A stretch of DNA of 64,000 bases from Blastococcus saxobsidens (GTDB taxonomy: Bacteria; Actinomycetota; Actinomycetes; Mycobacteriales; Geodermatophilaceae). The stretch spans positions 62,001-126,000 of the forward strand of contig NZ_POQT01000008.1 in NCBI RefSeq assembly GCF_002938435.1. Reading direction: 5' to 3'. Below are positions 19,578 through 60,427 of the stretch, piece after piece; the first letter of the stretch is position 1; every line of letters starts with the position of its first letter. A model generated the notes under the pieces. The model was not told the origin of the DNA and did no database searches. It worked only from the letters and a program-made list of their open reading frames with translations. The translations under genes and the position numbers were made by a program.

Positions 19578-20225
19578 TCACCCGGCGATCAACCGCCGGA
19601 CCTCCGCCTCCACCGCATCGGCCCGGCCGGCCAGCTCGTCGACCACCGTGACCGCCTTCGTCAGCTCGTCCCGCGCCCCGTCGTCGTCGATGCCGGCCAG
19701 GTTGGTCTCGACGGCGAGCCGCGCGGTGGACGCCGCGGCGCGGGCGGCGGCGGTCGCCGCCGCGACGTCGCTGATCAGATTGCGGTTGGCGAGCGGGAGG
19801 ATCCGCTCCGCGAGCGAGGTGAGCACCACCGCGATGTCGATGATGGTCCGCGGCGGTCGGGCGGCGTCCAGCTGGGCGGCGCCGAGCGCCTGCCGCCGCG
19901 CCTCCTTCTCCTCGTCGGAGCCGCGCGGCAACTTCATGGCCGCGGCGACCGCGGAGAAGGCCGCCTCGTCGTCGGCCGCGGCGGCCAGGCAGGCGTCGCG
20001 CTGGCGATCGGCCTCGGCGACGATCTCGCCCACGACGCCGGCGTGCTCCTCGTCGGTGGTGAACCGGCCGACCATCGCGACGAGCGAGGCCGCGAGCGCC
20101 GCCTCGATGCCGGCGGTCGCACCGGCGCCCGGTGCGGCCAGGCGGGCGGCGAGCTGGCCGAGGAACCCGCCGAGGGACTGGCGGTCGACGTCGTCGGGGG
20201 AGGGCGCTCCGGTCGGGGGTGTCAC
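19578..20225 (-). CDS. fchA: Cyclodeaminase/cyclohydrolase family protein (FchA-like)
   Basis: A 215-residue all-helical protein of the formiminotransferase-cyclodeaminase family; the bacterial FchA type converts 5,10-methenyl-THF and 10-formyl-THF into one another. Seen: SLGGFLGQLAARLAAPGAGATAG, the glycine/proline-rich folate pocket, and VETNLAGIDDDGARDEL near the end. GTG 20225 was taken over longer forms since GAGG lies eight bases upstream and the extra N-terminus is low-complexity proline. Last gene of the folate string behind pabBC. It overlaps in role with FolD, giving a second way from methenyl- to formyl-THF. Confidence 0.82.
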   Translation of the reverse strand: MTPPTGAPSPDDVDRQSLGGFLGQLAARLAAPGAGATAGIEAALAASLVAMVGRFTTDEEHAGVVGEIVAEADRQRDACLAAAADDEAAFSAVAAAMKLPRGSDEEKEARRQALGAAQLDAARPPRTIIDIAVVLTSLAERILPLANRNLISDVAAATAAARAAASTARLAVETNLAGIDDDGARDELTKAVTVVDELAGRADAVEAEVRRLIAG

Positions 20226-20238
20226 GGTGGTGGCCTCG

Positions 20239-22170
20239 CTAGGGGGTGGGGGAGGGGGCTGACCCCCCTGTGCCCGCGGAGCTGCGGTGTCGAACCGGGG
20301 CGCCTGCATCCGGGGGCCGGGCGAGCGGGCGGTCGGCGTCCGCGCCCGGGCCGGCCGGCAGCAGCCGGGCGCTCCGCCAGCCGCGCAGCGAGCTCACCAC
20401 GGCCAGCTCCTCGGCGGCCCGCAGGTCCGCCACGGTCAGCACCCGCTCGTGCAGCCGGCCGAGCTCCAGCAGCCGGCCCCGCTCCACGCCCGGCAGGCAG
20501 CCCACGTCGGTGGGCGGCGTCCACCAGCGCCCGCCCAACCGCACGGCCAGCGACGCGATGGTGGTCTCGGTCAGCTCACCGCGCTGGTTGACCAGCACGA
20601 CGTCGTCGGCCTCCGGGTGCCGGAGCGCACGGGACCGGTAGACGTCGCGCCGGGTGGTCTTGTGCTGCAGCCAGGGGCTGGTCGCGTCCACCGGCTCGTC
20701 GTCGACGGCCAGCCGGACCGGCCGGTCGAGCGGCTCGGGCAGCGGGCCGGTCCCGACCTCCACCCGGCCGTCGCGGAACAGCAGCGCGCGCACCCGGGCC
20801 GGCTCCCCGAGCCCCGCGACGGCGCTGCGCAGGGACCCGAGGACGGCGTCCCGCTCGAACCGGAACCCGGACCAGTCGGCCGAGTCGGCCATCCGGGTGA
20901 GGTGGCGGTCCAGGTTGCGCAACCCCTCGCCGGGCACGAACGCCAGCGTCTCCAGCAGCTGGTGGTCGGTGGCCGGATGGCCGAGGACCGCCGCCTTGGC
21001 GTGCAGCTCCGCGCGCTCGCGGGCGGGGTCGGAGCCCCAGGTGATCCCGCCGCCGGCGCCGTAGACGCCCGCCCCGGTCGAGCGGTCGACGACGGCGGTG
21101 CGGATGGCGACGCTGAACCGCGCCCGGAACGGGGCGGTCGGCGGGGCGACCAGGCCGATGGCGCCGCAGTAGAGGCCGCGCGGGGTGGGTTCGAGCTCGT
21201 CGATCAGCTGCATGGTCCGCTGCTTGGGGGCACCGGTCACCGAACCGCAGGGGAACAGCGCCCGGAAGATCTCGGCCAGCCCGGTCCCGGGCCGCAGCCG
21301 GGCGCTCACCTGCGAGGTCATCTGCCACACCGTCGGGTACCGCTCGAGGGCGAACAGCTCGTCGACGGTCACGCTGCCCACTTCGGCGATGCGACCGAGG
21401 TCGTTGCGCAGCAGGTCGACGATCATCAGGTTCTCCGCCTGCTCCTTGCTGCTGGCGCGCAGCCGGCGGCTCTGCTCCCGGTCCTCGGCCGTCGTCCGCC
21501 CCCGCGCGGCGGTGCCCTTCATGGGGCGGGTGCGCACCCGGGAGCCCACCCACTCGAAGAACAGCTCCGGGCTGGCGCTGGCGACGGCGAACCGGCCGAG
21601 GTCCAGGTAGGCGTTGTGGGCCCCGCGCTGCGCCAGCGCCAGGCGGGCGTAGAGCTCCTCGGGGTCCCCGGCGTCCGGGCACCGCAGCCGGTCGGTGAGG
21701 TTGCACTGGTAGGTCTCGCCGGCGGCGATGTGCTCGCGGACGGTGGTGACCGCGCGGGCGTGCTGGTCGTCGGACCAGTCGGGTCGCCAGGCGGCCGCCG
21801 GCACCGGGGGACCGGCGGGCGGGCCCACCGGCGGCACCGGCGCGGGTTCGGCGCACAGCCCGAACCAGATCAGCGGCGGCTCGCCCGCCCGGTGCCCGCC
21901 GGGCAGGCCGGCGTCCAGCCCCGACGCCGCCTCGTAGGACACGTAGCCGAACGCCCAGGCCCCGGCCTCGGTGGCGTCGTGCAGCTCGCGCAGCACGTCG
22001 GCCACCTCGTCGGACCGGGTCGTGGTGAGCACCCGGTCCGGCGGAGGGCACAGCAGCGCCGACCCGGTGCGCAGGTCGTCGAAGCGCGCCCACGGACCTC
22101 CCGCAGGCGGCTCCGCGGCCCCGGGCACCCGTGGGGAGGCCGGCCCCGGCGCGGCCGGGGACGGGTCCAT
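20239..22170 (-). CDS. pabB: Fused aminodeoxychorismate synthase component I and aminodeoxychorismate lyase (PabB-PabC)
   Basis: A 643-residue fusion. Residues about 100-400 are a chorismate-binding domain with GETYQCNLTDRL, RTRPMKGTAARG and FPCGSVTGAPKQRTMQLID. The Lys in PMKGT is the covalent-intermediate lysine of aminodeoxychorismate synthases; anthranilate synthases have Ala there. The remaining 240 residues are a class IV PLP fold with the Schiff-base lysine in LQHKTTRRDVY and VNQRGELTETTIASL. Together they make p-aminobenzoate, the folate precursor, from chorismate. ATG overlaps the folD stop, so it is co-translated with the C1-folate genes. Confidence 0.92.
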   Translation of the reverse strand: MDPSPAAPGPASPRVPGAAEPPAGGPWARFDDLRTGSALLCPPPDRVLTTTRSDEVADVLRELHDATEAGAWAFGYVSYEAASGLDAGLPGGHRAGEPPLIWFGLCAEPAPVPPVGPPAGPPVPAAAWRPDWSDDQHARAVTTVREHIAAGETYQCNLTDRLRCPDAGDPEELYARLALAQRGAHNAYLDLGRFAVASASPELFFEWVGSRVRTRPMKGTAARGRTTAEDREQSRRLRASSKEQAENLMIVDLLRNDLGRIAEVGSVTVDELFALERYPTVWQMTSQVSARLRPGTGLAEIFRALFPCGSVTGAPKQRTMQLIDELEPTPRGLYCGAIGLVAPPTAPFRARFSVAIRTAVVDRSTGAGVYGAGGGITWGSDPARERAELHAKAAVLGHPATDHQLLETLAFVPGEGLRNLDRHLTRMADSADWSGFRFERDAVLGSLRSAVAGLGEPARVRALLFRDGRVEVGTGPLPEPLDRPVRLAVDDEPVDATSPWLQHKTTRRDVYRSRALRHPEADDVVLVNQRGELTETTIASLAVRLGGRWWTPPTDVGCLPGVERGRLLELGRLHERVLTVADLRAAEELAVVSSLRGWRSARLLPAGPGADADRPLARPPDAGAPVRHRSSAGTGGSAPSPTP

Positions 22171-23030
22171 CAGTCGCCGCGCCCCTGCTGCACCTTGGCC
22201 GCCTCCAGCGTGTTGGCCAGCAGCATGGCGATCGTCATCGGACCGACCCCGCCCGGCACGGGCGTGATGCTGCCGGCCACCTCGGCCACCGCCGCGGTGT
22301 CGACGTCGCCGTGCAGCCCGTTCTCGCCCCGGTGGATGCCGACGTCGATCACGGTGGCGCCCGGCTTCACCGCGTCGGCACCGACCAGCCCGGGGATGCC
22401 GGCGGCGACGACGAGCACGTCGGCGCGGCGGCACACCTCGGCGAGGTCCCGGGTCCGGGAGTGGCAGATGGTCACGGTGGCGTTCCGCTCGAGCAGCAGC
22501 TGCGCCATCGGCTTGCCGACCAGCACCGACCGGCCGACGACGACCGCCTCGGCGCCCTGCAGGGACACCCCGGCCTCGTCGAGCAGCACCATGACGCCCG
22601 ACGGCGTGCACGGCCGCAGCCCCGGCCGGCCCTGCGCCAGCAGGCCCGCGTTGGCGGCCGTCAGCCCGTCGACGTCCTTCTCGGCCGGGATCCGGGCCAG
22701 CAGCGCCTCGGAGTCCAGATGCTTCGGCACCGGCAGCTGCAGCAGGATGCCGGAGACGGCGGGGTCGGCGGCGAGCTCGTCGATCAGCGCGGCCGCCTCC
22801 TCCTGGCCGACGTCGCCGGGCAGGTGCCGGTGCAGGTCCTGCATGCCGGCGGCCACGCACAGCTTGCGCTTGTTGCGGACGTAGACCTCCGACGCCGGGT
22901 CGTCCCCGATGAGCACCGTGGCCAGCCCCGGCGCGGTGCCGCCCGCGGCCAGCAGCTCCTGGACGCCCTTGGCCACGTCCTCGCGGACCTGGCGCGCCAC
23001 CGCCGTCCCGTCGATCACCTGTGCTGTCAC
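22170..23030 (-). CDS. folD: Methylenetetrahydrofolate dehydrogenase / methenyltetrahydrofolate cyclohydrolase
   Basis: A 286-residue bifunctional FolD of normal length that oxidises 5,10-methylene-THF to methenyl-THF and hydrolyses that to 10-formyl-THF. Seen: YVRNKRKLCVAAGM with the catalytic lysine, GILLQLPVPKHLD, VVVGRSVLVGKPMAQLLLER for NADP and PVPGGVGPMTIAMLLANTL at the end. GTG 23030 follows GAGGAG. Eleven bases separate it from purU. In this string FolD takes the product of MetF and feeds PurU. Confidence 0.96.
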   Translation of the reverse strand: MTAQVIDGTAVARQVREDVAKGVQELLAAGGTAPGLATVLIGDDPASEVYVRNKRKLCVAAGMQDLHRHLPGDVGQEEAAALIDELAADPAVSGILLQLPVPKHLDSEALLARIPAEKDVDGLTAANAGLLAQGRPGLRPCTPSGVMVLLDEAGVSLQGAEAVVVGRSVLVGKPMAQLLLERNATVTICHSRTRDLAEVCRRADVLVVAAGIPGLVGADAVKPGATVIDVGIHRGENGLHGDVDTAAVAEVAGSITPVPGGVGPMTIAMLLANTLEAAKVQQGRGD

Positions 23031-23041
23031 TGCGGCGCTCC

Positions 23042-23953
23042 TCAGAAGACGATCGTCGTGTTGTCGTGGCGGGCGACCCGGTCCTCGAGGTGCCACCGCA
23101 CCGCCCGCGACAGCACCGCCCGCTCGACGTCGGCGCCGAGGCGGACCAGGTCCGCGGTCTCGTGCCGGTGGTCCACCCGCACGACGTCCTGCTCGATGAT
23201 CGGCCCCTCGTCCAGGTCCTGGGTCACGTAGTGCGCGGTGGCCCCGATCAGCTTCACCCCCCGGTCCTTGGCCTTCTGGTACGGGCCGGCGCCGATGAAG
23301 GCGGGCAGGAACGAGTGGTGGATGTTGATCAGCGGGCAGCCGACGCCCTCGAGGAAGTCGCCGCTGATGATCTGCATGTAGCGGGCGAGGACCACCAGGT
23401 CCACGTTGCCGCGCAGCAGCTCCAGCATCCGCTGCTCGGCCTCCGGCCGGTTGTCCCGCGTGGCCGGGATGTGGAAGTACGGCACCCCGAACGGGCGGAC
23501 CTGGTCGGCGAGGTCGGGGTGGTTGGAGATCACCATCGCCACGTTCATGTCCAGCTCGCCGCGGCGGTTGCGCCACAGCAGGTCCAGCACGCAGTGGTCG
23601 GTCTTGGACACCATGATCGCGACCCGCTTCGGCCTGGCCGCCTCGCTGAGCCGGAACTGCATCCCGAACTTCTCCGCGACCTCGGCGGCGAACGCCCGCT
23701 CCAGGTCCTCGCGGGCGGCGGCCAGCCCGGGCAGGTGGAACTCGGTGCGCTGGAAGAAGGCGCCCCCCTCCGCGGCGGTGGAGTGCTGGTCGAGCGTGAC
23801 GATGTTCGCGCCCGCGTCGGTGAGGAACGTGCTCACCGCGGAGACGATCCCCGGCTGGTCGGAGCACTGGACGAGCAGCCGGCCGTGGTCGGCGTCCTCC
23901 CGTCCGTGGTGCGTCGAGCGGGGGAGGGCGGGAGCGTTCGGCACTGCGGTCAT
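23042..23953 (-). CDS. purU: Formyltetrahydrofolate deformylase
   Basis: A 303-residue PurU with an N-terminal ACT domain ([20 protein letters not shown]) and a formyltransferase-like catalytic domain. The active site is [12 protein letters not shown] (Asn, two His) plus the Asp in [16 protein letters not shown]. It hydrolyses 10-formyl-THF to formate and free THF. Next to MetF and FolD it completes a route that strips the one-carbon unit from folate and returns THF, the acceptor needed by the LigM demethylase upstream. In Sphingobium the comparable position is held by the formyl-THF synthetase LigH. Confidence 0.95.
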
Positions 23954-24020
23954 GGCTTCTCCGGGTTCGGGCCGGCCACCGGGCCGGGCAGGTGTGGATG
24001 TGGAGCGGCGACCGCGGGCC

Positions 24021-24884
24021 TCAGGCGAGGGCCTGGATCGTCTGCTTCCGCCACTCCTCGGTGGGCTCGAGGTCGTTGAAGGTGAACACGTGGAAGCCGG
24101 TGATGGTGTTGTCCGGCTTCCCCATGTGCGGGGCGAGCCCCTTGATGATCTTGGCCGGGTTGTAGCCGCCGGGCACGAAGAACCGCCAGAGCAGGGTCTG
24201 CTGCTTCTTCAGGAACTTCGCCGACTCCCCGATGCCCAGACCGCCGGAGACCCGCAGCAGCTTCTGCCGGTGGACCGCACCGGGGACGCCGACGTGCACC
24301 GGCAGGTCGATGCCGCGGCGCTTCAGCTCCCGCGCCCAGCGCAGGATGACGGCCGGGTCGAACACGATCTGGGTCTTGATGTGGTGGGCCAGGGCCGCCT
24401 TGTCCTTGAGCGCCTGGAACAGCACGTCCTCGCTGACCGACGGGTGCCCCTCCGGGTGGCCGCCGATGCCGATGTCGGTGAAGCCGTGGTCCAGCTCGTG
24501 CAGCGCGACCAGGAGGGCGTGGGCGTCCTTGAACTCCGTGGGCGTCTCCGTCGGGTCCCCGCCGACGACGAACACGTCGGTGATCCCCGCCTCGCGGCAC
24601 CGCGCCACGATGTCGGCGAGGTGCGCGCGGTCCTGGACCTGCTGGGCCGAGAGGTGCGGGGCCACCTCGTACCCGTGGCCGGCCAGGGCGACGGTCAGGT
24701 CGATCGTCGCGTCCTGGCCCTTCGCCGGGGAGGCGGTGACGGTCAGCCGCACGTCCTTGGGCACGTGCCGGAGCACCTGCTCCTGGGTCTTCTTGAACGG
24801 GATGACCTCGTAGCCGAGCGTCTCGAAGCTGCGCCGCAGGGTGGCGCGGGTGTTCGGGTCCCGGACGGTGAGAACTCGGTTCAC
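24021..24884 (-). CDS. metF: Methylenetetrahydrofolate reductase (MetF-type)
   Basis: A 287-residue FAD enzyme that interconverts 5-methyl-THF and 5,10-methylene-THF. Seen: [14 protein letters not shown] at the start, [14 protein letters not shown] and [16 protein letters not shown] for folate, and [20 protein letters not shown] with [20 protein letters not shown]. It is somewhat divergent from the methionine-pathway MetF. It lies 36 bases after ligB. In syringate/vanillate degraders a dedicated MetF oxidises the methyl-THF produced by LigM/DesA, and the location argues for that role. Confidence 0.92.
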
Positions 24885-24920
24885 GGTGGCCTTTCCTCGG
24901 GCAGCTCGTGGGGGCGGTGC

Positions 24921-25787
24921 TCAGGCGGGCTGGGGAGCCCGGTTGTCGAAGAGTGCGATGCCGGCCGCGGTGTTCGACGCCGGCAGGAAGTAGTGCGAGT
25001 GGACCTTGGTGACCTCGTCGGCCATGGCCCCGCGCATGATCAGCCACATGATCAGCTCGATCCCCTCGGAGCCCGCCTCGCGGATGAGCTCCTCGCGGCT
25101 GAGCGCGGCCAGCGCCGCCGGATCGGTGTGGATCTTCTCCAGCCACATCGCGTCGAACTCGGGGTTGATGAAGCCGGCGCGGGCGCCGGCGAGCTGGTGG
25201 GACATGCCGCCGGTCCCGAGGATGCCGACGGTCACGTCCTCGCCGTAGGAGCGGATCGCCCGGCCCAGCGCCTGCCCCAGGGCGTAGCACCGGGCCGCGG
25301 TGGGCTGCGGGTACTGGATGACGTTGACCAGGATCGGCACCACCGGGCAGGGCCAGGCGTCGCCGGGGTCCGGGGTCCAGACCGACAGCGGCACGGTGAG
25401 CCCGTGGTCGACCTCCAGCTCCTGGAACACGGTGAGGTCGAAGTTCTCGTCGACCAGGCTCTCGAGCAGGTGCAGCGACAGGTCCGGGTCGCCGATCACG
25501 TCCGGGACCTGGCGGGGGCCGTAGCCCTCGTCGGCCACCCGGTAGTGGTCGGCCGTGCCGATCCCGAACGTCGGGACGATGTCCAGGTCGAGGCCGTTGG
25601 CGTGGTCGTTGTAGACGACGATCGCCACGTCCGGCTCGTGCTGCGCCAGCCACTGGCGGGCCGGCGCGTAGCCGTCGAAGAGGTCCTTCCAGTTCGGGTC
25701 CTCGGTCTTGCCGCGGTCCATCGCCGCGCCGATGGACGGCACGTGCGAGGTCGCCAGACCCCAGATCACCTCAGCCACGCCGGCCAC
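24921..25787 (-). CDS. ligB: LigB-type extradiol dioxygenase, catalytic beta subunit
   Basis: A 288-residue class III extradiol dioxygenase that opens protocatechuate, gallate or 3-O-methylgallate rings next to a hydroxyl. Iron ligands are visible as His15 (ATSHVPSIG), His62 (YNDHANGLD) and a Glu near 241, and the acid-base His197 in GTGGMSHQLAGARAG. It overlaps the alpha-subunit gene by 17 bp, as in ligAB. No LigC or LigI is encoded in the window, while LigU-J-K are, so gallate or methylgallate is the more likely substrate. Confidence 0.93.
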   Translation of the reverse strand: MAGVAEVIWGLATSHVPSIGAAMDRGKTEDPNWKDLFDGYAPARQWLAQHEPDVAIVVYNDHANGLDLDIVPTFGIGTADHYRVADEGYGPRQVPDVIGDPDLSLHLLESLVDENFDLTVFQELEVDHGLTVPLSVWTPDPGDAWPCPVVPILVNVIQYPQPTAARCYALGQALGRAIRSYGEDVTVGILGTGGMSHQLAGARAGFINPEFDAMWLEKIHTDPAALAALSREELIREAGSEGIELIMWLIMRGAMADEVTKVHSHYFLPASNTAAGIALFDNRAPQPA

Positions 25788-26136
25788 CCGCCCGCAGCTC
25801 CGCGAGGAACTCCTCCTCGGTCATGCCGGTGAACACGCCACCGAGGTACTGCATCGAGCGGCCGTCCATCATGGCCAGCTTGTAGACGTAGAAGATGCTC
25901 CCGCCGAGGTCGATCATCGCCGTCCAGTCGCGGTCGAGGACGGCCTGCGTCTGCTCGGGCGCGAGCTGGAACTCCGCACAGTAGGCGGCCTCGTCGGCGG
26001 AGAAGCGCTCGCGGTTCTCCGCCGAGCGGAAGCTCATCAGCATCTTGTTCAGCCGCAGACCGCGCCGGCTGGTCTGCCCGTCGAAGATCGGCGTCCCCGG
26101 CACGTTCAGCCGGCCGCCCGTCTCGTTCGTGCTCAT
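25771..26136 (-). CDS. ligA: LigA-type extradiol dioxygenase alpha subunit
   Basis: A 121-residue all-helical small subunit. RLNKMLMSFRSAENRERFSA and AYCAEFQLAPEQTQAVLDRD, then DLGGSIFYVYKLAMMDGRSM and GMTEEEFLAELR match protocatechuate 4,5-dioxygenase alpha chains, which cover the LigB active site. ATG 26136 follows AAGGGA; upstream in-frame starts would add a Pro/Ala-rich tail of no known role. Co-transcribed with ligB. Confidence 0.92.
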   Translation of the reverse strand: MSTNETGGRLNVPGTPIFDGQTSRRGLRLNKMLMSFRSAENRERFSADEAAYCAEFQLAPEQTQAVLDRDWTAMIDLGGSIFYVYKLAMMDGRSMQYLGGVFTGMTEEEFLAELRAGGRRG

Positions 26137-26186
26137 CGGGGATCCCTTGATCGGAGGGGAGGGCGGGGCGACCGCCACGGCCGTCG

Positions 26187-26468
26187 TCACGACGTCCGCT
26201 CCTGCGGGTGGGTGGCCAGCGCCTCGACGTGGACGTCCAGCCACGGTGCCATGGGCAGCGACATGAGGGCGTCGTGCAGCGCGGCCGGGTCCTCGGCCTC
26301 GTAGAGGCCGACCGTCGCATTGCGGCCGGGCACCCGCCAGAGGCGCTTGAGCACACCCTCGGCGCGCAGCTCCATGGCCCGCGTCCGCTCCCCGGCGCGC
26401 AGCTCCTCGCGGCGCTCCGCGGGGGTGTCGGCCGGCAGCCGGTTCTCCGACCGGACCAGGAACTCCAC
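26187..26468 (-). CDS. Muconolactone isomerase-like protein (CatC fold)
   Basis: A 93-residue protein of the usual CatC length. VEFLVRSENRLPADTP at the start, the MELRAEGVLKRLWRVPGRN strand and LHDALMSLPMAPWLDVHVEAL give the ferredoxin-like fold of muconolactone delta-isomerase. No catechol ortho-cleavage gene is nearby, so an isomerase on another ring-fission product is more plausible. GTG 26468 begins one base after the preceding stop. Confidence 0.82.
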   Translation of the reverse strand: MEFLVRSENRLPADTPAERREELRAGERTRAMELRAEGVLKRLWRVPGRNATVGLYEAEDPAALHDALMSLPMAPWLDVHVEALATHPQERTS

Positions 26469-26469
26469 G

Positions 26470-27207
26470 TCAGACCCCCGTCTCACGCCGCGTGGCCGAC
26501 GATCGGCCGGCGATGTCGAGCAGTGCGGCGGCCAGCTCCGCCGGCGCGGTGACCATCGCCTCGTGCCCGGTGTCCAGCTCGTGCACCGGCCAGCCCCTCT
26601 CCCGGGCGCGGTCGGCCTGCGCGGCGAACACCCGCATCCAGCTCACGCACTCGATGAACGCCGCGGGCACCTGGTCGACGGCGCCGGTGAGGCGCAGGGC
26701 GTCGGTGTAGGTCTTCCACGGGTGTGCGGTGAGCTTCGGCGTGAGCCAGTCGACGTCGGCCTGCTCGGTCACCCCGAGCACCGACAGCTTCCGCACCGCC
26801 ACCAGCCAGCCGAAGCCCTGCTCGGCGGCGGACCCGGCCCAGTGGTGCTCCACGGTCTCGGGCAGCAGGTCGCGCGCCGCCTCGCCGTCGGCACCGACGA
26901 AGGCGTCCAGGTAGACGCGCTGCGCCACGGCCGCCGGGCGGCGATCGGCCACGGCGGTGACGACCTGGCCGGCGTAGGAGTGCCCGACCAGGACGACGTC
27001 CTCCAGACCCAGGACGTCGATCAGCCGGACGACGTCCTCGACGTGGGTCTCCAGGCCGACCGTCGGCGACAGCAGGTGCGCCCGCTCGGACAGGCCGGTG
27101 AGCGTCGGGGCGTGCACGGCGTGCCCGGCCTCGCGGAGGAGGGGGGTCACGCGGTCCCAGCACCAGCCGCCGTGCCAGGCCCCGTGGACCAGGACGAAGG
27201 TGCTCAT
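26470..27207 (-). CDS. Alpha/beta hydrolase, salicylate-esterase/hydroxynitrile-lyase-like
   Basis: A 245-residue compact alpha/beta hydrolase. FVLVHGAWHGGWCWDRVTPL is the oxyanion loop, GHSYAGQVVTAVADR the nucleophile elbow (Ser near 77) and LDTGHEAMVTAP the catalytic histidine. The lack of a large cap domain and the GAWHGGWCW start are typical of the MES/hydroxynitrile-lyase group that acts on aromatic methyl esters or similar small esters. Inside the ligM-ligAB string it could release an aromatic acid from an ester or act on a ring-fission lactone. Confidence 0.82.
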   Translation of the reverse strand: MSTFVLVHGAWHGGWCWDRVTPLLREAGHAVHAPTLTGLSERAHLLSPTVGLETHVEDVVRLIDVLGLEDVVLVGHSYAGQVVTAVADRRPAAVAQRVYLDAFVGADGEAARDLLPETVEHHWAGSAAEQGFGWLVAVRKLSVLGVTEQADVDWLTPKLTAHPWKTYTDALRLTGAVDQVPAAFIECVSWMRVFAAQADRARERGWPVHELDTGHEAMVTAPAELAAALLDIAGRSSATRRETGV

Positions 27208-27383
27208 GCGGCTGCGCCCTCCAGGGGGTCGGTCATCGCGGACGTGGGGTGGCTCACGTCCACGCTACGGACGGCGGCCTGACGGCGGATCGGCGCGATG
27301 TCAGGGCCACCGCCGCCGTTGCCGCCCGGCCCGCGTACGTCATCTGTCGTGGATGCGGACGCGGGACCGGGCGGGCCGCCGGC

Positions 27384-28745
27384 TCAGCGTGCCCGGTAGT
27401 TCTCCCGGGCGAAGTCCACGAACGGCACGGGTGCCACCGTGGCCCGGATCTCCACCTGGCGGTGATCCTCGACGGCCGGCTTGGCCGACACCGGGTGCTC
27501 GCCCCACAGCACGGTCACCTCGGTGCCGGGCTCGGCGAGCTCCGCCTCGACGACGGCCAGGGAGACCAGCGCGCGCTCGTTGGCCAGGTAGCCGCAGTCC
27601 AGCGACAGACCCACCCGCCGGCCGTCCACGAGCACCTTGTCCTCGTGGTGGGTGGCGTACCGGATCTTCGGCAGGTCCATGAACTTCGCGCCCGGACCCG
27701 GGAGGAACAGCGAACCGAGCGCCTCGGCGACGTCGTCGGCGTTCCACACGAGGGTCACCTTCGTGCGCGACGGCGCCTGCGCCAGCTGCTCGAGGGCCTC
27801 CCGGCCGACGAACTCGTGGTCGAAGCGGACGGTCTTGCCGTACCCGACCTCGTACGGGGTGAGGCAGTAGTCGCGGATGTCGGCGGAGTCCATGCTGCCG
27901 CCGATGGAACCGACCTTCGCGGCCGGCAGCCACTCCCGGTACTCCTTCATGAGCGGGTCGTCGGAGAAGAGCGCCGCCATGGGTGCGGGCACCCACCCGG
28001 ACTCCAGGTTGGCCGTGGAGTAGGCCTTGGCGCCGACGCGCACCAGGCCGTGCGCCTTCCCGGCCTCCAGCAGCGCCGAGAGGACGGCGTCCCCGTCCTC
28101 CCAGGGGCCGAAGAGCTCGAAGCCGGGCTGCCCGGCCATGCCGTGCCGCAGCGCGCGCACGCGGCGACCCGCGATCGTGAACTCGGCCATGTGGAAGAAC
28201 TTCACGTCGGGGAGGGGGGCGCCGGTCACCTGCTCGACCAGCGCGGCGGCGGTCGGCCCCTGCAGCTCGTAGCGGTAGAGCCTCGGCGGCCCCGACCTGC
28301 GGACCGCGGAGTTGTCGTCGCGCTCCGCGGTGGCGTCGTAGTCCCCGCGCGCCAGGTGGAAGGTCACCCAGTCGATGACCATCGGGTGCCCGACGAGGTC
28401 GAAGAGCTCGTCCTCGAGGTGGAAGAGGATGGCGTCCCCGATGAGGTGCCCCTCCGGGTTCACCGCGACGAACTGCTTGGCCTTCCCGACGCCGAAGTTC
28501 GCGAAGGAGTTGACGCCGACGTCGCTGAGCAGGCGCAGTGCGTCGGGGCCGGAGATGAACAGGTCGGTCATGTGGTGGGACTGGTCGAGCAGGGCGCAGC
28601 TCTCCACCCAGGAGCGCTGCTCGGAGCGCCAGTTGGTGAACTCCGGCTGCACCGGGAAGGTGCTCGGCGGGAAGCTCAGGTTGCGGAGCAGCTCGACCGG
28701 GCTCCCGGCACGGGCGAGGGCGGCGGCAAGACAATCGGGCGACAT
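27384..28745 (-). CDS. ligM: Tetrahydrofolate-dependent aromatic O-demethylase (LigM/DesA type)
   Basis: A 453-residue protein of the GcvT aminomethyltransferase fold that moves an aryl O-methyl group to THF. LigM/DesA signatures: EFTNWRSEQRSWVESCALLD, QSHHMTDLF, FHMAEFTIAGRRVRALRHGM, YSTANLESGWVPAPM and YCLTPYEVGYGKTVRFDHEF. Length fits LigM (about 470). Glycine-cleavage T proteins are shorter and no gcvH or gcvP is near. It is followed by ligAB, metF, purU and folD, exactly what is needed to use the demethylated ring and to recycle methyl-THF. Substrate (vanillate, syringate or 3-O-methylgallate) cannot be told apart by eye. A second paralogue lies at 46248-47648. Confidence 0.9.
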   Translation of the reverse strand: MSPDCLAAALARAGSPVELLRNLSFPPSTFPVQPEFTNWRSEQRSWVESCALLDQSHHMTDLFISGPDALRLLSDVGVNSFANFGVGKAKQFVAVNPEGHLIGDAILFHLEDELFDLVGHPMVIDWVTFHLARGDYDATAERDDNSAVRRSGPPRLYRYELQGPTAAALVEQVTGAPLPDVKFFHMAEFTIAGRRVRALRHGMAGQPGFELFGPWEDGDAVLSALLEAGKAHGLVRVGAKAYSTANLESGWVPAPMAALFSDDPLMKEYREWLPAAKVGSIGGSMDSADIRDYCLTPYEVGYGKTVRFDHEFVGREALEQLAQAPSRTKVTLVWNADDVAEALGSLFLPGPGAKFMDLPKIRYATHHEDKVLVDGRRVGLSLDCGYLANERALVSLAVVEAELAEPGTEVTVLWGEHPVSAKPAVEDHRQVEIRATVAPVPFVDFARENYRAR

Positions 28746-28833
28746 GGGCGGGACCTTCCGTCGGACGGGGACCGGACGACGCCGGCCGCGGATGCGCCGG
28801 GGCCTGTGCCGCGCCCGGCCTTGCTGATCGACA

Positions 28834-28867
28834 AGCTAGGGAGTCCCGCCGGCCGCGGGATCCCGCG
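28834..28867 (-). promoter_or_regulatory. Candidate ligM promoter with a perfect 14-bp palindrome
   Basis: CGCGGGATCCCGCG (28854-28867) is a perfect palindrome. On the minus strand TAGCTT (28839-28834) fits a -10 box, and the palindrome would lie over the -35 position. It is in the 227-bp gap between the P450 and ligM genes, the only sizeable break in the string. No matching copy was noticed elsewhere in the window. Confidence 0.4.
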
Positions 28868-28972
28868 AATGACGCATCCGGGGAGCGACGAGTCGTGATC
28901 TCCGTGCGACATCCGACGTAGCGGGGGGCGCACTCCCGGAGCGGACCGGCCGGGCGGGACGCGCTCGCGCGA

Positions 28973-30184
28973 TCAGTCGAGGGCCACCCGCACCGGCAGG
29001 CGCTCGAACGCGCGCAGCGTGTTGTTGTGGTGCCGCACGGGAGGCCCGTCGAGCTCGATGGTGGAGACCCGTCGGGCCAGCGCCGTCAGGATCGACTCGG
29101 CCTCCAGGCGGGCGACGTGCTGGCCGACGCACTGGTGGATGCCCATGCCGAAGCCGACGTGGCCCGAGGGGTCGCGCGACAGGTCGAAGCGGTCCGGGTC
29201 CGCCCACCGGCGCGGATCGCGGTTCGCCGCGGCCAGGAACATGAGGATCTTGCGGCCCTCGGGGATGACGACGTCGCCGATCCGCACCTCGGTGGTCGCC
29301 GTCCGGAAGAAGGTCTGGACCGGCGACTCCAGGCGCACCGCCTCGTCGAACGCGACGCGGGCGAGCGACGGCTCCTCGCGCAGCCGCCGCCACTGGTCCG
29401 GGTGGGTGGCGAAGGAGTGCAGGATCGCGGAGATGCCGTGCACGGTCGTGTCGACGCCGGCCGTCAGCAGCGACCGGACCACGAGCGGAGCCTGCTCGGG
29501 GGTGATGTCGCCGCGGTCGCTGGCGGCCCAGATGTCCGCGCCGAAGCCCGTCGGTGCCAGCACGTCCCGCTGGCACTGGGCGTTCACCCAGGCCGACAGC
29601 TCGGCCACCCGGGGCGCTCCCCTGGCGACCAGGTCGTTGGCCGGGCCGAACGCGTTGAACGCGTGGTCGCCGTAGGGGAGCAGCTTCTCCCGCCCGTCCT
29701 GCGGGATGCCGACGGCGTCGGGGAACACCCGCAGCGGGAAGGTGGCGGCCAGGTCCGCGACGGCGTCGAAGGAGGTCCCACGGGAGAGGACCTCGTCGAC
29801 GAGCGCGTCGGCGTCGGCCGCCCAGCCGTCGCGCAGCCGGCGCAGCGCCCGGGGACCGAGCACCTTCTGCAGCACCCGGCGAGGGGCGTCGTGCCGCGGC
29901 GGGTCGGCCTCCAGCAGCAGGCTCGGCGGCCGCCACGGCTCCTCGTACCGGAAGTTCGACAACCCCACGCCGGCCGAGGACTGGAAGTCCTGCCAGTTCA
30001 CCAGGGCGGCGTGCACGTCGTCGTAGCGGGCCAGCGCGAAGACGTCGTACCTGCTGAGGAAGACCACCGGCCCGGCCTCGCGCAGGGCCGCGTGCATCGG
30101 CAGCGGGTCCTCCAGCACGTCGTGGGAGAACGGGTCGACGTCGCTGGTCGGTGCGGTGGTGCCGGTGGGGACGGTGGCGGTCAC
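28973..30184 (-). CDS. Cytochrome P450
   Basis: A 403-residue soluble bacterial P450. I-helix oxygen-activation motif SLLTAGVDTTVHGI, ExxR in FDEAVRLESP, and heme loop HVGFGMGIHQCVGQHVARLE with the cysteine ligand. QTFFRTATTEVRIGDVVIPEG precedes it. GTG 30184 has GAGGAG upstream; the longer frame adds only Ser/Thr-rich residues. The reductase gene lies 26 bp upstream in the same direction. Next to LigM an aromatic substrate is likely, for instance oxidative O-demethylation like CYP199 or GcoA enzymes, but that is inference. Confidence 0.92.
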   Translation of the reverse strand: MTATVPTGTTAPTSDVDPFSHDVLEDPLPMHAALREAGPVVFLSRYDVFALARYDDVHAALVNWQDFQSSAGVGLSNFRYEEPWRPPSLLLEADPPRHDAPRRVLQKVLGPRALRRLRDGWAADADALVDEVLSRGTSFDAVADLAATFPLRVFPDAVGIPQDGREKLLPYGDHAFNAFGPANDLVARGAPRVAELSAWVNAQCQRDVLAPTGFGADIWAASDRGDITPEQAPLVVRSLLTAGVDTTVHGISAILHSFATHPDQWRRLREEPSLARVAFDEAVRLESPVQTFFRTATTEVRIGDVVIPEGRKILMFLAAANRDPRRWADPDRFDLSRDPSGHVGFGMGIHQCVGQHVARLEAESILTALARRVSTIELDGPPVRHHNNTLRAFERLPVRVALD

Positions 30185-30209
30185 GGGGAGCTCCTCGGGT
30201 GCCGGGGGG

Positions 30210-31187
30210 TCAGAGGTCGAGGACGAGGCGGTCGTCCCGGGAGCGGGAGACGCAGACGTACATGCAGTCGTCGGCCGCGCGCTCGTCGTCGTCGAGCAGG
30301 GCGTCACGGTGGTCGGGCCGGCCGGCCAGCACCGTGACCTCGCAGGTGCCGCACACCCCGCGCCGACAGGAGGACAGCACCTCGACGCCGACCCGGCCGA
30401 GCGCCTCGAGCACCGTCACGTCCGGTGTCACGGTCACCGTCGTGCCGGTGCGGGCGAGCTCCACCTCGAACGGCGCGACGCGCGCCGGCGCGCCCGCGTC
30501 GTCGGCGACGAACCGCTCGACCCGCAGGCTGTGCGGCGGCCAGTAGGCGCAGGTCCGCTCCATGGCTGCGAGCAGGGGGGCCGGTCCGCAGGAGTAGATC
30601 CGGACGCCCGCGCGCGGCTCGTCCAGGAAGCCGGGGAGGTCGAGCAGGCCGTACTCGTCCTGGGGCCGGACCAGGACCTTGTCGCCGTAGGGGGCCAGCT
30701 CGTCGAGGAAGGCCATCGAGCTGCGGTGCCGGCCCCCGTAGAGCAGTCGCCAGCCGGCGCCGAGCAGCTCGGCCTGGTGCACCATCGGCAGGATCGGGGT
30801 GATCCCGATGCCGCCCGCGACGAAGAGGTACTCCTCCGACGGCACGAGCGGGAAGTTGTTGCGCGGGCCGCCCACCCCCACCAGGTCGCCCACCCGCAGC
30901 TGGTCGTGCACGTAGGCGGAGCCGCCCCGGCTCTCCGGCTCGAGCAGCACGCCCACCCGATAGCTGCCGGCGTCCCACCGGTCACCGCAGAGCGAGTACT
31001 GCCGGGTCAGCCCGTTCGGCAGGATCAGGTCGATGTGCGAGCCGGGCGTCCAGTCGCGCAGCCGGTCGCCGGACGGCGAGGCGAGCTCCAGGGTCAGGAC
31101 GCCGTCGGCCTGCAGCTGCTTGCCGGTCACCCGCAGGCTGGCCACGGCATCGGCCACGGCCGCGGGAGCCGGGGAGGTGGCGGTCAT
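30210..31187 (-). CDS. Phthalate-dioxygenase-reductase-type oxidoreductase (VanB-like)
   Basis: A 325-residue electron carrier in the order flavin domain, NAD domain, C-terminal plant-type [2Fe-2S] domain. Flavin site LTRQYSLCGDR; NAD site LFVAGGIGITPILPM; cluster CRRGVCGTC with the fourth Cys in MYVCVSRS. Such proteins normally serve Rieske oxygenases such as VanA, but none is encoded nearby, so the adjacent P450 is the obvious partner. ATG 31187 faces the divergent IclR gene across 77 bp. Confidence 0.92.
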   Translation of the reverse strand: MTATSPAPAAVADAVASLRVTGKQLQADGVLTLELASPSGDRLRDWTPGSHIDLILPNGLTRQYSLCGDRWDAGSYRVGVLLEPESRGGSAYVHDQLRVGDLVGVGGPRNNFPLVPSEEYLFVAGGIGITPILPMVHQAELLGAGWRLLYGGRHRSSMAFLDELAPYGDKVLVRPQDEYGLLDLPGFLDEPRAGVRIYSCGPAPLLAAMERTCAYWPPHSLRVERFVADDAGAPARVAPFEVELARTGTTVTVTPDVTVLEALGRVGVEVLSSCRRGVCGTCEVTVLAGRPDHRDALLDDDERAADDCMYVCVSRSRDDRLVLDL

Positions 31188-31226: not shown

Positions 31227-31258
31227 GTCTCTCAATGGTCGAGACGCTGTGCCACGAT
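31227..31258. promoter_or_regulatory. Inverted repeat and TGTGCCACGA element between reductase and IclR genes
   Basis: GTCTC (31227-31231) and GAGAC (31241-31245) form an inverted repeat. Next to it TGTGCCACGA (31248-31257) equals the left ten bases of the palindrome at 43383-43396. The block lies in the 77-bp divergent region, six to forty bases before the IclR start. It is a likely IclR binding region controlling both directions. Confidence 0.5.
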
Positions 31259-31264
31259 GCGCCC

Positions 31265-32035
31265 ATGCCGCGCACGCCGACCGGTGAGTCCTCCCTGGCG
31301 CGGGCGGTCCGGGTGCTCGACGCCTTCACCGCCGACCAGCCGGCGCTCCGGGTCTCCGAGATCGCCCGGCGGTCGGGGCTGCACATCGCCACCGCATCAC
31401 GGATCGTCGGCCACCTCGTGGCGGAGGGGCTGCTCGCGCGGGGCTCGGACGGCAGCGTGCGGGTGGGCATGCGGCTGTGGGAGCTGGCCTCGCGCGCTGC
31501 CCCTGCCCGCTCGTTCCGGGACGCCGCGATGCCGTTCCTCGAGGACCTGCACGCCGTCGTCGGCCACCACGCGCAGCTGGCCGTCCGGAACGGCGAGGAG
31601 GTCCTCTTCGTCGAGCGGCTCTCCGCGCGCGACGCCGTCGTCAACTTCTCCCGCATCGCCGGCCGGCTCCCGCTGCACCTCTCCTCCTCCGGCGTGGTGC
31701 TCCTCGCCTACGGCCCGCCCGACGTGCGGGAGCGCGTGCTGAGCCGGCCGCTGGAGGCGGCCACCCCGGCGACCATCACCTCGCCCGAGCGGCTGCGGGC
31801 GGTGCTGGCGCAGGTGCGCCAGCAGGGCTACGCGCTCCTCCCGGGGCACGTCCACGAGGATGCGACGGGGATCGCCGTGCCGGTGCGCAACGGGATGGGC
31901 GAGGTGGTGGCGGCCCTGTCGGTCATCGTCCCGAACGACGACCGGGCCGCCTCGGCGGTCCCCGTCCTGCTGGCCACCGCCCGGGGGATCAGCCGGGTCC
32001 TGGGCGAGGCGCCGGAACCGTTCGAGGCCTCCTGA
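31265..32035 (+). CDS. IclR family transcriptional regulator
   Basis: A 256-residue regulator: winged HTH in residues 8-70 (LARAVRVLDAFTADQPALRV, SGLHIATASRIVGHLVAEG) and an effector domain with HLSSSGVVLLAYGPPD and GYALLPGHVHEDATGIAVPV, typical of PcaR/PobR-like IclR proteins that sense aromatic acids. ATG 31265 is preferred; the earlier in-frame start would run through the operator. Divergent from the P450/LigM string, which it probably controls. Confidence 0.9.
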   Translation: MPRTPTGESSLARAVRVLDAFTADQPALRVSEIARRSGLHIATASRIVGHLVAEGLLARGSDGSVRVGMRLWELASRAAPARSFRDAAMPFLEDLHAVVGHHAQLAVRNGEEVLFVERLSARDAVVNFSRIAGRLPLHLSSSGVVLLAYGPPDVRERVLSRPLEAATPATITSPERLRAVLAQVRQQGYALLPGHVHEDATGIAVPVRNGMGEVVAALSVIVPNDDRAASAVPVLLATARGISRVLGEAPEPFEAS

Positions 32036-37933: not shown

Positions 37934-39622
37934 TCAGTGCGCCGGGTCGTCGTCGCGGCCGGTGTCCTCCGCGCTCTCGCCGGCGAACGAGTGCGCGATC
38001 ATCCACGAGGCGAAGTCGGTGATCCGGGCGTCGATCACCAGCGGTCGCCGGCGGGAGCCCTCCACCCAGTCGCGCACCGCCTTGAGGTCGTCGACGGTCC
38101 GCACCGTGACCGCCTCGCAGCCGTAACCGCGCGCGATCGCGGCGATGTCGGTCTCGGGGAACTCGACGAGGTGGAGCGGGTGACCCTCCGGGCCGAAGTG
38201 GTGGACCTCCGCGCCGTAGGCGTGGTCGTTGTAGACGAGCACCACCAGGGGCACCTCGGTGCGGACGGCGGTGTCCAGCTCGACGTGGCTCATCATGAAG
38301 CCCCCGTCGCCGACGCCGGCGACGGCGACCCGGCCCGGGGACGCCAACCCTCCGCCGATCGCGGTGGAGATGCCCAGTCCGATGGACTGGAACGCCAGCG
38401 TCAGGAGGTATCCGCGCTCGTCCGGCACATCGAGGAACATCGCCGGGTAGCCGTTGAAGTTGCCGCCGTCGATGGCGACCACCCGCTCCCGGGGCAGGAT
38501 CTCGTTCAGCGCGGTGGTGAGCGTCCGCGGGTCGATGAGCTCGTCGGTGCTGGTGTCCGTGTAGGGCTCGTCGCGCCAGCGGTACCCGGCGCGGATCCGC
38601 TCCTGCACCTCCGTCGTCCGCCACCCCGGGGACGTACGGGGCCGGGCACGCAGGCTCTCGACGGTTGCCGCGGCGGTGGTCCGGACGTCGCCGACGATCC
38701 CGAGGTCGACCCGCACGTGCGTGCCGATCGCGGCCGGGTCCTCGTCGATCTGGACCACCGTGGCGTCGGGGTTCAGCAGCTCGCCTGCCCGCAGCGTCCA
38801 GACGTTGAGCGAGGCGCCCCAGGCGACGACGAGATCCGCGGAGCTGATCAGGTCGGCGGCCATCGGCGTGGAGAACCCGCCGGAGACGTCGACGGACCAC
38901 TCGAGACCCTCGAACAGTCCCCGAGCGACGCCCGAGGTCGCGAGGAGGGCCCCGCTGACGTCGCCCAGCTCGGCGAGCACCTCCCGGGCACCCGACAACC
39001 GGGCGCCCCGGCCGGCGATGAGCACCGGCCGCGACGCGGTGCGCAGCAGGTCGGCCAGGGCCTCGATCGAGCGCGGGCCGGCGACGGCCGGCTCCAGCAC
39101 CGGGGGCGTCAGCGGCGGGAGCGCGTCGGTGGGCACCTCGGCGTCCTGGATGTCCAGGGGCAGGTTGAGCACGACGGTCCGGCGGTCCACCGCAGCACGC
39201 CGGAAGGCCCGCACGGCCTCCTGCACGGCGGTGCGCGGAGAGGTGATCGTCTCGGAATGGACGCCCAGCCCGCGCAGCACGGCCGGCTGGTCGATGTTGA
39301 AGTTCGAGAGCGTGTTCCAGCCGGCGGTGTCCGCGGCCAGCACCAGCAGCGGGGTGCGGCTCTTGGCCGCCTCGGTGATGCCGGTCAGCGCGTTGGTCAG
39401 GCCGCACCCCTGGTGGACGGTCACGGCCGCCACGCGCTGGGTGGTGCGGGCGTACGCGTCGGCCATGATCGCGGCGCCGGCCTCGTGACGCGTGGCCACG
39501 AACCGGGCCCCGGAGCTGACGAGGGCGTTGGTCACGTGGAAGTTGCCGCTACCGACCACGCCGAACACCTGGTCCAGGCCCAGACGTCCCAGTTCTCGGC
39601 CGATCGCTTCGGCTACGCGCAC
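37934..39622 (-). CDS. Thiamine-diphosphate-dependent decarboxylase (benzoylformate decarboxylase/acetolactate synthase family)
   Basis: A 562-residue TPP enzyme with the three-domain layout. Catalytic Glu47 is in TRHEAGAAIMADAYART, the TPP/Mg site in GVGDGGFMMSHVELD with NDHAYGAEVHHFGPEG, and VTVHQGCGLTNALTGI places a histidine at residue 70. Benzoylformate decarboxylases have an active-site His there (His70), while acetolactate synthases do not. It may therefore split an aryl 2-oxo acid into aldehyde and CO2. It is the last gene of an ABC-importer operon and close to two 2-hydroxyacid dehydrogenases. Confidence 0.85.
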   Translation of the reverse strand: MRVAEAIGRELGRLGLDQVFGVVGSGNFHVTNALVSSGARFVATRHEAGAAIMADAYARTTQRVAAVTVHQGCGLTNALTGITEAAKSRTPLLVLAADTAGWNTLSNFNIDQPAVLRGLGVHSETITSPRTAVQEAVRAFRRAAVDRRTVVLNLPLDIQDAEVPTDALPPLTPPVLEPAVAGPRSIEALADLLRTASRPVLIAGRGARLSGAREVLAELGDVSGALLATSGVARGLFEGLEWSVDVSGGFSTPMAADLISSADLVVAWGASLNVWTLRAGELLNPDATVVQIDEDPAAIGTHVRVDLGIVGDVRTTAAATVESLRARPRTSPGWRTTEVQERIRAGYRWRDEPYTDTSTDELIDPRTLTTALNEILPRERVVAIDGGNFNGYPAMFLDVPDERGYLLTLAFQSIGLGISTAIGGGLASPGRVAVAGVGDGGFMMSHVELDTAVRTEVPLVVLVYNDHAYGAEVHHFGPEGHPLHLVEFPETDIAAIARGYGCEAVTVRTVDDLKAVRDWVEGSRRRPLVIDARITDFASWMIAHSFAGESAEDTGRDDDPAH

Positions 39623-40693: not shown

Positions 40694-40775
40694 CGGCTCT
40701 CCTTCTCAGAGGGGTGGTGCGGCAGGTGTGGCACCGGATCGGCGCGTTCGGCGGACCGACGAGCCGTACGGCGGT

Positions 40776-41558: not shown

Positions 41559-41579
41559 TTCTGGACTACCTCCGCGGGG

Positions 41580-44722: not shown

Positions 44723-44786
44723 GCGAGCATCCTGCCCCGGCGCACCGTCGCTTGCGCCAGGCGGGCCGGGGCTGGTTCCGTGAGGC

Positions 44787-46247: not shown

Positions 46248-47954
<1,707 letters not shown>

Positions 47955-57565: not shown

Positions 57566-57572
57566 GGAGACA

Positions 57573-57598
57573 CCCCGTCCCCTCGCGGGGCCGGGACG
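57573..57598 (+). other. Intercistronic hairpin
   Basis: CGTCCC (57576-57581) pairs with GGGACG (57593-57598), with a competing CCCC/GGGG stem inside. It lies in the only real gap of the operon (85 bp) between ligU and the dioxygenase gene. It may attenuate transcription or protect the upstream message. Confidence 0.4.
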
Positions 57599-57650
57599 AG
57601 CCTCCGGACGACGCCACCGAACCTTCCGCCCCCGACTCCTAGGAGTGCCC

Positions 57651-60405: not shown

Positions 60406-60406
60406 C

Positions 60407-60427
60407 GCCGGCCCCCAGGGGTCCGGC
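60407..60427 (+). terminator. Terminator after ligJ
   Basis: GCCGG-C-CCC and GGG-T-CCGGC face each other around a three-base loop, two bases after the stop of ligJ. The stem is about eight pairs with one mismatch. Confidence 0.6.

Follow-up and report, generated by a model that had tools for sequence, protein, structure and literature searches.

O-demethylation has been described as a bottleneck or the rate-determining step in lignin conversion (PMC6021390, PMC11530827). In strain SYK-6, which carries a ligM-metF-ligH set, MetF oxidises 5-methyl-tetrahydrofolate (5-methyl-THF) to methylene-THF (PMC12585457). The gene purU is essential for chloromethane use (PMC3621897), and the PbdAB pair demethylates para-methoxybenzoates and veratrate (PMC11530827). 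Here we describe a cluster of twelve genes in a 64-kb stretch of Blastococcus saxobsidens DNA (G000:C8:62001-126000, below called the window) from a genome of 4.52 Mb in 86 contigs, in which genes for aryl O-demethylation stand together with genes for the recycling and the supply of folate. We think it likely that this is a methoxylated-benzoate island in which methyl groups are moved stoichiometrically onto THF and oxidised to formate, while the folate supply genes raise the THF pool.

The cluster and its proposed pathway

The original prediction had listed twelve co-directional genes on the minus strand, and open reading frames (ORFs) together with family profiles bore out every one of them in the order claimed, from the reductase to the cyclodeaminase (31187-19578). 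The substrates of the encoded enzymes would be acids of the p-methoxybenzoate, vanillate, syringate and gallate type, whose ring methyl groups would be passed to THF. The LigM-type proteins LigMa (27384-28745), which belongs to the cluster, and LigMb (46248-47648, minus strand) would form 5-methyl-THF, and a MetF-like protein of the SYK-6 LigM-associated type (24021-24884; PF02219, 50.7 bits) would oxidise it to methylene-THF. The conversion to 10-formyl-THF would be carried out by FolD, a methylene-THF dehydrogenase/cyclohydrolase (22170-23030; NF010783, 347.9 bits, cut-off 333), aided by an FTCD_C/FchA-like methenyl-THF cyclohydrolase or cyclodeaminase (19578-20225; PF04961, 131 bits on the longer ORF 19578-20309), whereupon PurU, a 10-formyl-THF deformylase (23042-23944; TIGR00655, 404.5 bits, cut-off 285.95), would release formate and free THF. 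The P450 pair at the other end of the cluster would remove the para-methyl group as formaldehyde, which could enter at methylene-THF.

On the supply side, a PabBC fusion of aminodeoxychorismate synthase and lyase (20239-22170; TIGR00553, 341 bits, cut-off 328.4; Aminotran_4, 119.6 bits) would make p-aminobenzoate (PABA). An extra dihydropteroate synthase (DHPS, folP), encoded outside the window at window coordinate 64967-65845 (L172:4967-5845; TIGR01496, 290.6 bits, cut-off 162.6), would join PABA to the pterin, and a 5-formyl-THF cyclo-ligase (62451-63164, plus strand; TIGR02727, 124 bits, cut-off 84.9) would rescue folate. We propose that such genes are found in the cluster because THF serves there as a bulk co-substrate.

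De novo folate genes recur at LigM loci

A de novo folate gene, by which we mean FolE, FolP, FolB, FolK, FolC or PabBC found with the same queries at E ≤ 1e-10, occurs no farther than about 10 kb from LigM at 16 of the 19 LigM loci of the family Geodermatophilaceae (L042-L060, about 20 kb each, the window genome not being counted). None was found at 40 VanA_C Rieske loci of the same order (Fisher 9e-12, a figure inflated by kinship within the family); these were 40 of 46 matched regions, and PF19112 marks a VanA-type Rieske family whose members are not all proven vanillate demethylases. There was likewise none at the 2 LigM loci from another family of the order and none at 15 PAC2 loci, a control that is circular for pabBC since these loci were chosen as lacking it. 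Among named LigM loci, of which the best 80 by similarity of at least 572 confirmed were taken (several of them cut by contig ends), 14 carry a de novo folate gene; seven loci are common to this set and the family set, and the two counts are thus not additive. With the cluster genes found together in relatives and the VanA controls free of folate genes, the recurrence goes beyond chance.

In seven relatives (G002, G003, G011, G013, G024, G033 and G064) the folate genes form a longer cassette in the order metF-folD-pabBC-fchA-folP, the genes of which overlap by 4 bp in G033 (L090). In six of the seven (not G024) an aldehyde dehydrogenase gene comes next, followed by a 5-formyl-THF cyclo-ligase gene on the opposite strand; a cyclo-ligase gene is found near the cassette in G002, G003, G007, G011, G012, G013, G033 and G064. 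Partial cassettes also occur, without pabBC (G007), without folP (G012), or reduced to metF-folD-pabBC (G058), metF-purU-folD-fchA (G053) or metF-folD with the aldehyde dehydrogenase gene (G062). The cassette of the window genome is split, with the cyclo-ligase gene, an aldehyde dehydrogenase gene that runs beyond the window end (63258-64000, plus strand; PF00171, 428 bits; L172:3259-4722) and the extra folP lying at 62451-65845. Since a housekeeping folE-folP-folB-folK run (FolE, FolB and FolK named by eye) is present on another contig, the DHPS encoded at 64967-65845 is an additional copy.

The trees and the variety of the genes recruited are a better argument than the family count. In the PabBC tree (30 rows, from which the Terriglobia copy L140, G004, G047, G048, G054, G056, G057, G061, G063, G066, G068 and the second copy of G059 were excluded) the 15 cassette copies, which come from several genera, form one branch (100/99). 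The LigM-adjacent pabBC of Klenkia terrae (G065) groups instead with the copy of G025, a member of the same genus with no LigM match (100/99), and by this placement it is a separate recruitment; PabBC of G035, also of the genus Klenkia, falls next to the cassette clade, and the G029 copy stands apart. One and the same slot between ligB and ligMa holds folP and folC in G054 (FolC TIGR01499, 317.6 bits, cut-off 162.65), folP in G061 and pabBC in G065, all of the genus Klenkia. Elsewhere, in Amycolatopsis (L098, L100 and L101), folP is encoded on the opposite strand at a distance of 1.6 kb from LigM, the Agromyces locus L115 has folE 105 bp downstream of LigM, folE is part of an operon LigMa-MetF-LigMb-FolE-PurU-FolD in the metagenome-assembled genome (MAG) L151, and pabBC follows LigM in the Terriglobia MAG L140. 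The FolP tree (22 rows, the Amycolatopsis ones partial with 192-252 aa) leaves 9 of 19 forks open and does not unite the cassette copies in one resolved clade; as a tree of this kind it speaks for at least two changes, and only for the Klenkia and Amycolatopsis copies. The original prediction had called for a search for pabB neighbours of ligM in other Actinobacteria; LigM-adjacent pabBC was found in relatives and in Klenkia terrae and, beyond these, in the Terriglobia MAG. The reading of the folate genes as recycling plus supply in the original prediction gained support from the longer cassettes with folP in relatives, from other folate genes at unrelated LigM loci and from the empty VanA loci.

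The proximity of folP to LigM could have come from a housekeeping folate operon nearby. This was rejected, as 124 loci gave no match to FolB, FolK or FtsH and 2 to FolE (the FolB and FolK queries were named by eye).

Folate genes might also guard the cell against PABA-like aromatic acids that compete at DHPS, with extra PABA and DHPS restoring synthesis. The commonest of the genes, pabBC and folP, do flank PABA, and the substrates of the cluster are presumably para-substituted benzoates. However, these genes are absent from the VanA loci, whose enzymes presumably act on similar acids, folE and folC are found as well as pabBC and folP, and the G029 cluster has the same genes although its substrates are methylated glycines and not aromatics. 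Moreover, in an alignment read by eye, conserved motifs of the housekeeping DHPS are retained in the cassette copy. Such protection is therefore, in our judgement, very improbable as the reason for the association.

PabBC and the ancestral pabBC locus

Three chorismate-binding proteins are encoded in the genome. Two of them are TrpE- or MenF-like by context and motif (PPAGT in TrpE, VLAGT in MenF), and the PabB-type lysine motif PMKGT is present only in the cluster copy, which also reaches the PabB equivalog score and has the fused lyase domain. Judged by score and motif, the genome has no PabB other than the cluster PabBC, which may for this reason double as a housekeeping gene. In seven g1 genomes without LigM, pabBC has a conserved position, with a PAC2-family gene on one side and a catalase gene or PurU region on the other, and in an eighth, G004, it lies at a contig edge upstream of that PurU. 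The other 15 g1 genomes (L192-L206, the window genome included) have the PAC2 gene and lack pabBC there, and none of the 23 shows both copies.

These observations are what one would expect if PabBC were a housekeeping aminodeoxychorismate synthase relocated by chance, to the function of which its neighbours are irrelevant: it is the only PabB, the PAC2-pabBC site of the window genome lacks the gene, and no g1 genome has both copies. Such a relocation would not explain why the cassette has an extra folP despite the housekeeping folE-folP-folB-folK run, why pabBC, folP, folC or folE stands beside LigM in other lineages, or why no de novo folate gene is seen at the 40 VanA loci. Furthermore, PabBC is dispensable in the family, as 31 of 69 genomes have no PabBC-like match (18 at E ≤ 1e-10 and 13 at E ≤ 1e-60, some of these genomes being incomplete) and 38 have one; in all 13 of the former 18 that were checked the strongest remaining hit was TrpE-like by motif. 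We consider chance relocation rather unlikely. PabBC is present in 16 of the 20 LigM-bearing family genomes and in 22 of the 49 others (Fisher 0.009, not corrected for kinship), it lies inside the LigM cluster in 14 of the 20, and it is the sole copy in 13 of these 14.

Several findings nevertheless weigh against the view that the folate genes were recruited to enlarge the THF pool for demethylation. Outside Geodermatophilaceae a de novo folate gene was found at only 6 of 71 LigM loci among the best 80, which differs from the 40 VanA loci alone with Fisher 0.063 and from all 55 controls with 0.029. Two of the 20 family genomes that carry LigM, G053 and G062, have no such gene nearby, and the G006 locus is cut off by a contig edge; FolE, FolB and FolK are absent from all 19 family loci. 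These loci largely share one cassette origin, so that 16 of 19 does not stand for 16 events. Many relatives have the cassette on a different strand from ligM or from the ring-cleavage genes. PurU, found at 5 of the 19 family LigM loci, is no constant part of the cluster. The cluster copy of G059 consists of the PabB half without the lyase half, and G007, a complete genome with LigM, has folP and no PabB. Lastly, a sole PabB must also serve the ordinary need for folate unless PABA is taken up.

In five of the seven intervals read among the 15 g1 genomes an aromatic-acid/H+ symporter-like gene replaces pabBC (L193:7460-8806, L201:7310-8551 and the matching interval of L194, L197 and L206). The two that were checked scored 283 and 282 bits with TIGR00895, below its cut-off of 418.55, and the encoded protein could be a PABA importer. 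A symporter-like gene at the ancestral pabBC site was seen in G017 too, which has no PabB. In the window genome the corresponding region (L192:4775-7215) has neither a catalase nor a Fur or PurU gene within the stretch examined; it encodes a 488-aa protein that by eye resembles one on contig C44, perhaps as members of a repeated family. The 31 genomes of the family without a PabBC-like match include the complete G007 and G017, and DHPS was nevertheless found in 65 of 65 genomes that are at least 90% complete (in a set of 70 genomes); widespread PABA auxotrophy in the family, or another route to PABA, is possible.

A wider proposal is that bulk use of THF selects for the capture of folate genes, with different genes captured in different lineages. 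Capture would have gone furthest here, since pabBC has been lost from its ancestral site and PABA synthesis is encoded nowhere but in the demethylation cluster, so that PABA prototrophy may depend on methoxylated aromatics, with PabB-less members of the genus scavenging PABA or folate. We offer this tentatively and hold it to be possible, with the doubts preponderating.

The one-carbon genes

The closest sequence to MetF in the PDB was the SYK-6 enzyme 7xg9 (116 bits, as against 50 or less for other methylenetetrahydrofolate reductase chains). An S6MTHFR-type MetF next to LigM is thus found here, and MetF is present at all 19 family LigM loci. The genome has three copies of FolD, two of MetF and four PurU-like matches, one of them weak. 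The label of cyclodeaminase given to the last gene of the cluster in the original prediction was right as to the Pfam family, FTCD_C, but the protein stays below the NCBI cut-off for FchA (NF045657, 89 bits, cut-off 275); its best PDB sequence was the cyclohydrolase 7vg4 (63 bits).

A genome-wide search gave no formate-THF ligase (ligH/FTHFS) above the cut-off and one weak partial match of 22.5 bits, which leaves PurU as the visible exit for the one-carbon unit. This bears on the alternative that the module chiefly supplies one-carbon units for biosynthesis instead of oxidising methyl groups. SYK-6, which has no glycine cleavage, obtains its one-carbon units through LigM and MetF (PMC12585457), the same type of MetF is present here, and most relatives do without PurU in the cluster. 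In the present genome, however, a whole-domain match to GcvT (301 bits, contig C5) was found in a search for GcvT alone, and the PurU of the cluster would release the formyl group as formate and so indicates oxidation. A mainly biosynthetic role thus appears improbable to us.

The LigM-type demethylases

The original prediction had named LigM, with glycine-cleavage and dimethylglycine enzymes as the alternative. This alternative was rejected on profile scores, for LigMa reached 572 bits with the syringate-demethylase (DesA) model NF047633 and 503 bits with the LigM model NF047885, in contrast to at most 80 bits with GcvT models. It also matched the GCV_T domain (PF01571, 138 bits) and the LigM structure 5tl4 (439 bits over residues 3-451). 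Both equivalog cut-offs were missed (800 for NF047633 and 580 for NF047885), and for that reason we term LigMa a member of the LigM/DesA family of THF-dependent aryl O-demethylases, not LigM or DesA, although by these scores it is nearer to DesA than to LigM. The clear LigM is LigMb, predicted to act as a vanillate/3-O-methylgallate demethylase (NF047885, 892 bits; 5tl4, 711 bits). The catalytic tyrosine of LigM is aligned and conserved in LigMa (Y242), and the position of the carboxylate-binding arginine is occupied by His in LigMa and by Arg in LigMb (alignment by eye). In LigM these residues are tyrosine 247 and arginine 122.

LigMb is flanked by genes (43586-46169) for an LldD/MftD-like, FMN-dependent enzyme and for a GlcD-like oxidase.

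The P450 pair and the ring-cleavage genes

The P450 and reductase of the original prediction were both present and can now be described as a pair of the CYP199A/PbdAB type for para-methoxybenzoate demethylation. The P450 (28973-30184, minus strand), a predicted para-O-demethylase of acids like 4-methoxybenzoate and veratrate, is nearest to the CYP199 para-methoxybenzoate demethylases, with 666 bits for the PDB sequence of the CYP199 9g9q and 511 for CYP199A4, the next other P450 reaching 192 bits. Its presumed partner, the reductase (30210-31187, minus strand; Fer2, 47 bits), has the order FAD, NAD and C-terminal 2Fe-2S, and its best PDB sequences were the P450-fused reductase domains 6kbh (264 bits) and 6laa (239 bits) and the phthalate dioxygenase reductase 2pia (182 bits). 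With a P450 nearest to CYP199 and a reductase of P450-fused or phthalate type, the pair resembles PbdAB.

Ring cleavage is represented by LigA, the small subunit of protocatechuate 4,5-dioxygenase (25771-26190; TIGR02792, 119.1 bits, cut-off 108.6), and LigB, the large subunit of a class III extradiol dioxygenase (24921-25787; NF009903, 379 bits, cut-off 317). Upstream of these, an alpha/beta hydrolase (26470-27207; PF12697, 72.6 bits) and a muconolactone-isomerase-family (MIase/CatC-like) protein (26187-26468; PF02426, 107.9 bits; TIGR03221, 81.9 bits, below the cut-off of 130.6) are encoded, all four genes on the minus strand. The hydrolase and the CatC-like protein stay paired in relatives, mostly beside LigA-LigB. 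We regard the former as a candidate ester hydrolase for the methoxylated ring-cleavage product and the latter as a candidate isomerase of such a product. DesC and DesD demethylate and isomerise the compound formed by ring cleavage of 3-O-methylgallate (PMC6888825, PMC8091115), and the pair at 26187-27207 may do the same work with a different kind of isomerase.

Transcription units

The twelve genes had been taken for one operon of mostly overlapping or closely spaced genes. The nine genes from the hydrolase to the cyclodeaminase are indeed tightly packed, but the gaps of 227 and 176 bp that flank LigMa make a single twelve-gene transcript doubtful. From the reductase onward the intergenic distances are 25, 227, 176, 1, -4, -17, 36, 76 and 11 bp, an overlap between FolD and PabBC, and 13 bp. 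An untranslated FolD-PabBC gap of 137 bp was considered and rejected, since an in-frame ATG at 22170, which shares one base with the FolD stop codon, closes it; a matching PabBC N-terminus in close relatives supports this start. A scan for promoters and terminators found no promoter-like and no minus-strand terminator-like match, and such a scan is weak at this G+C content. From the spacing, reductase-P450, LigMa and the remaining nine genes may be separate transcripts. The blocks IclR-reductase-P450, LigMa, hydrolase-CatC-LigA-LigB and the metF cassette vary in order and strand among relatives.

Neighbouring genes in the window

An IclR-type regulator gene (31235-32035, plus strand; PF01614, PF09339) is divergent from the reductase gene. 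Farther along, all on the plus strand, lie genes for a LigK-type 4-carboxy-4-hydroxy-2-oxoadipate aldolase (55788-56492; NF006731, 319.5 bits, cut-off 179), a 4-oxalomesaconate tautomerase (56489-57565; NF033377, 499 bits, cut-off 440), an amidohydrolase that is a candidate oxalomesaconate hydratase in the role of LigJ (59386-60405; PF04909, 190.8 bits) and a tannase/feruloyl esterase family protein (60797-62326; PF07519, 318 bits). Together (55788-62326) these suggest an island for 4,5-cleavage of gallate and protocatechuate. A transporter set of the SsuA/NitT ABC type adjoins a gene for a thiamine-diphosphate enzyme (39701-43015 and 37934-39568). The genome has further THF-linked clusters, L210 (G000:C8:44000-62500, just left of the window) and L211 (G000:C33:1-18000), with dimethylglycine dehydrogenase-like genes and PurU, and FolD in one of the two.

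Comparison with known systems

LigM-type demethylation may plausibly be limited by the THF pool, and the clusters suggest that some bacteria lift this limit with added genes for folate supply. They offer a parts list (pabBC, folP, folC, folE and 5-formyl-THF cyclo-ligase), a case of repeated capture of cofactor-biosynthesis genes by a catabolic cluster for which VanA-type loci are the natural control, and a testable tie between catabolism and vitamin prototrophy.

A dicamba cluster with metF, folD and purU reportedly exists, which could not be confirmed; PMC9404685 mentions none of the three genes. The literature covered, with few subscription journals, contained no report that joins pabB, folP or other folate biosynthesis genes with LigM or O-demethylation, and according to PMC12585457 similar gene sets are surveyed by Yu et al. 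2025 (Commun Biol 8:323). The novelty of folate biosynthesis genes together with LigM is therefore provisional. Of the two genes that the original prediction did not know from such sets, purU was rejected as a novel part, being already an essential chloromethane gene in a THF-dependent methyl pathway (PMC3621897). Nor did the original prediction know of such a set in an actinobacterium; LigM-type enzymes have already been reported in Actinobacteria: MAGs from thermophilic settings, several of them actinobacterial, have DesA- or LigM-like genes, with metF and ligH in MB2.64, and unlike for the cluster described here the available text mentions no folate biosynthesis genes (PMC9296663).

The PbdA/PbdB system of Rhodococcus jostii RHA1 has in common with our cluster a P450 and its cognate reductase for para-methoxylated benzoates, whereas no link to THF-dependent demethylation is stated in the available part of the report (PMC11530827). 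The ligM-metF-ligH system of SYK-6 shares a LigM-type demethylase, a MetF of the same kind and LigAB ring cleavage (PMC6888825, PMC12585457). It has ligH, a 10-formyl-THF synthetase gene, in the place of which our cluster has PurU, and no such ligase above the cut-off was found in the present genome. Its LigM and MetF replace glycine cleavage, and folate biosynthesis genes are not mentioned in these texts, the first of them in its available part (PMC6888825, PMC12585457). The plasmid pCMU01 of Methylobacterium extorquens CM4 resembles the cluster in its dedicated metF2, folD and purU for the oxidation of methyl-THF, and carries one copy of a folate biosynthesis gene, folC2. It differs in that the methyl donor is chloromethane, by way of the methyltransferase CmuA, and not an aryl ether, and in that pabA, pabB, pabC and folP are core genes without plasmid copies (PMC3621897). 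Finally, the dimethylglycine/sarcosine cluster of G029 (L191) has FchA-, FolD-, FolP-, PurU- and FolC-like genes and PabBC, and thus shares with the present cluster THF-dependent demethylation accompanied by genes for folate recycling and supply, while it differs in its N-methylated glycine substrates and in a PabBC from a separate branch.

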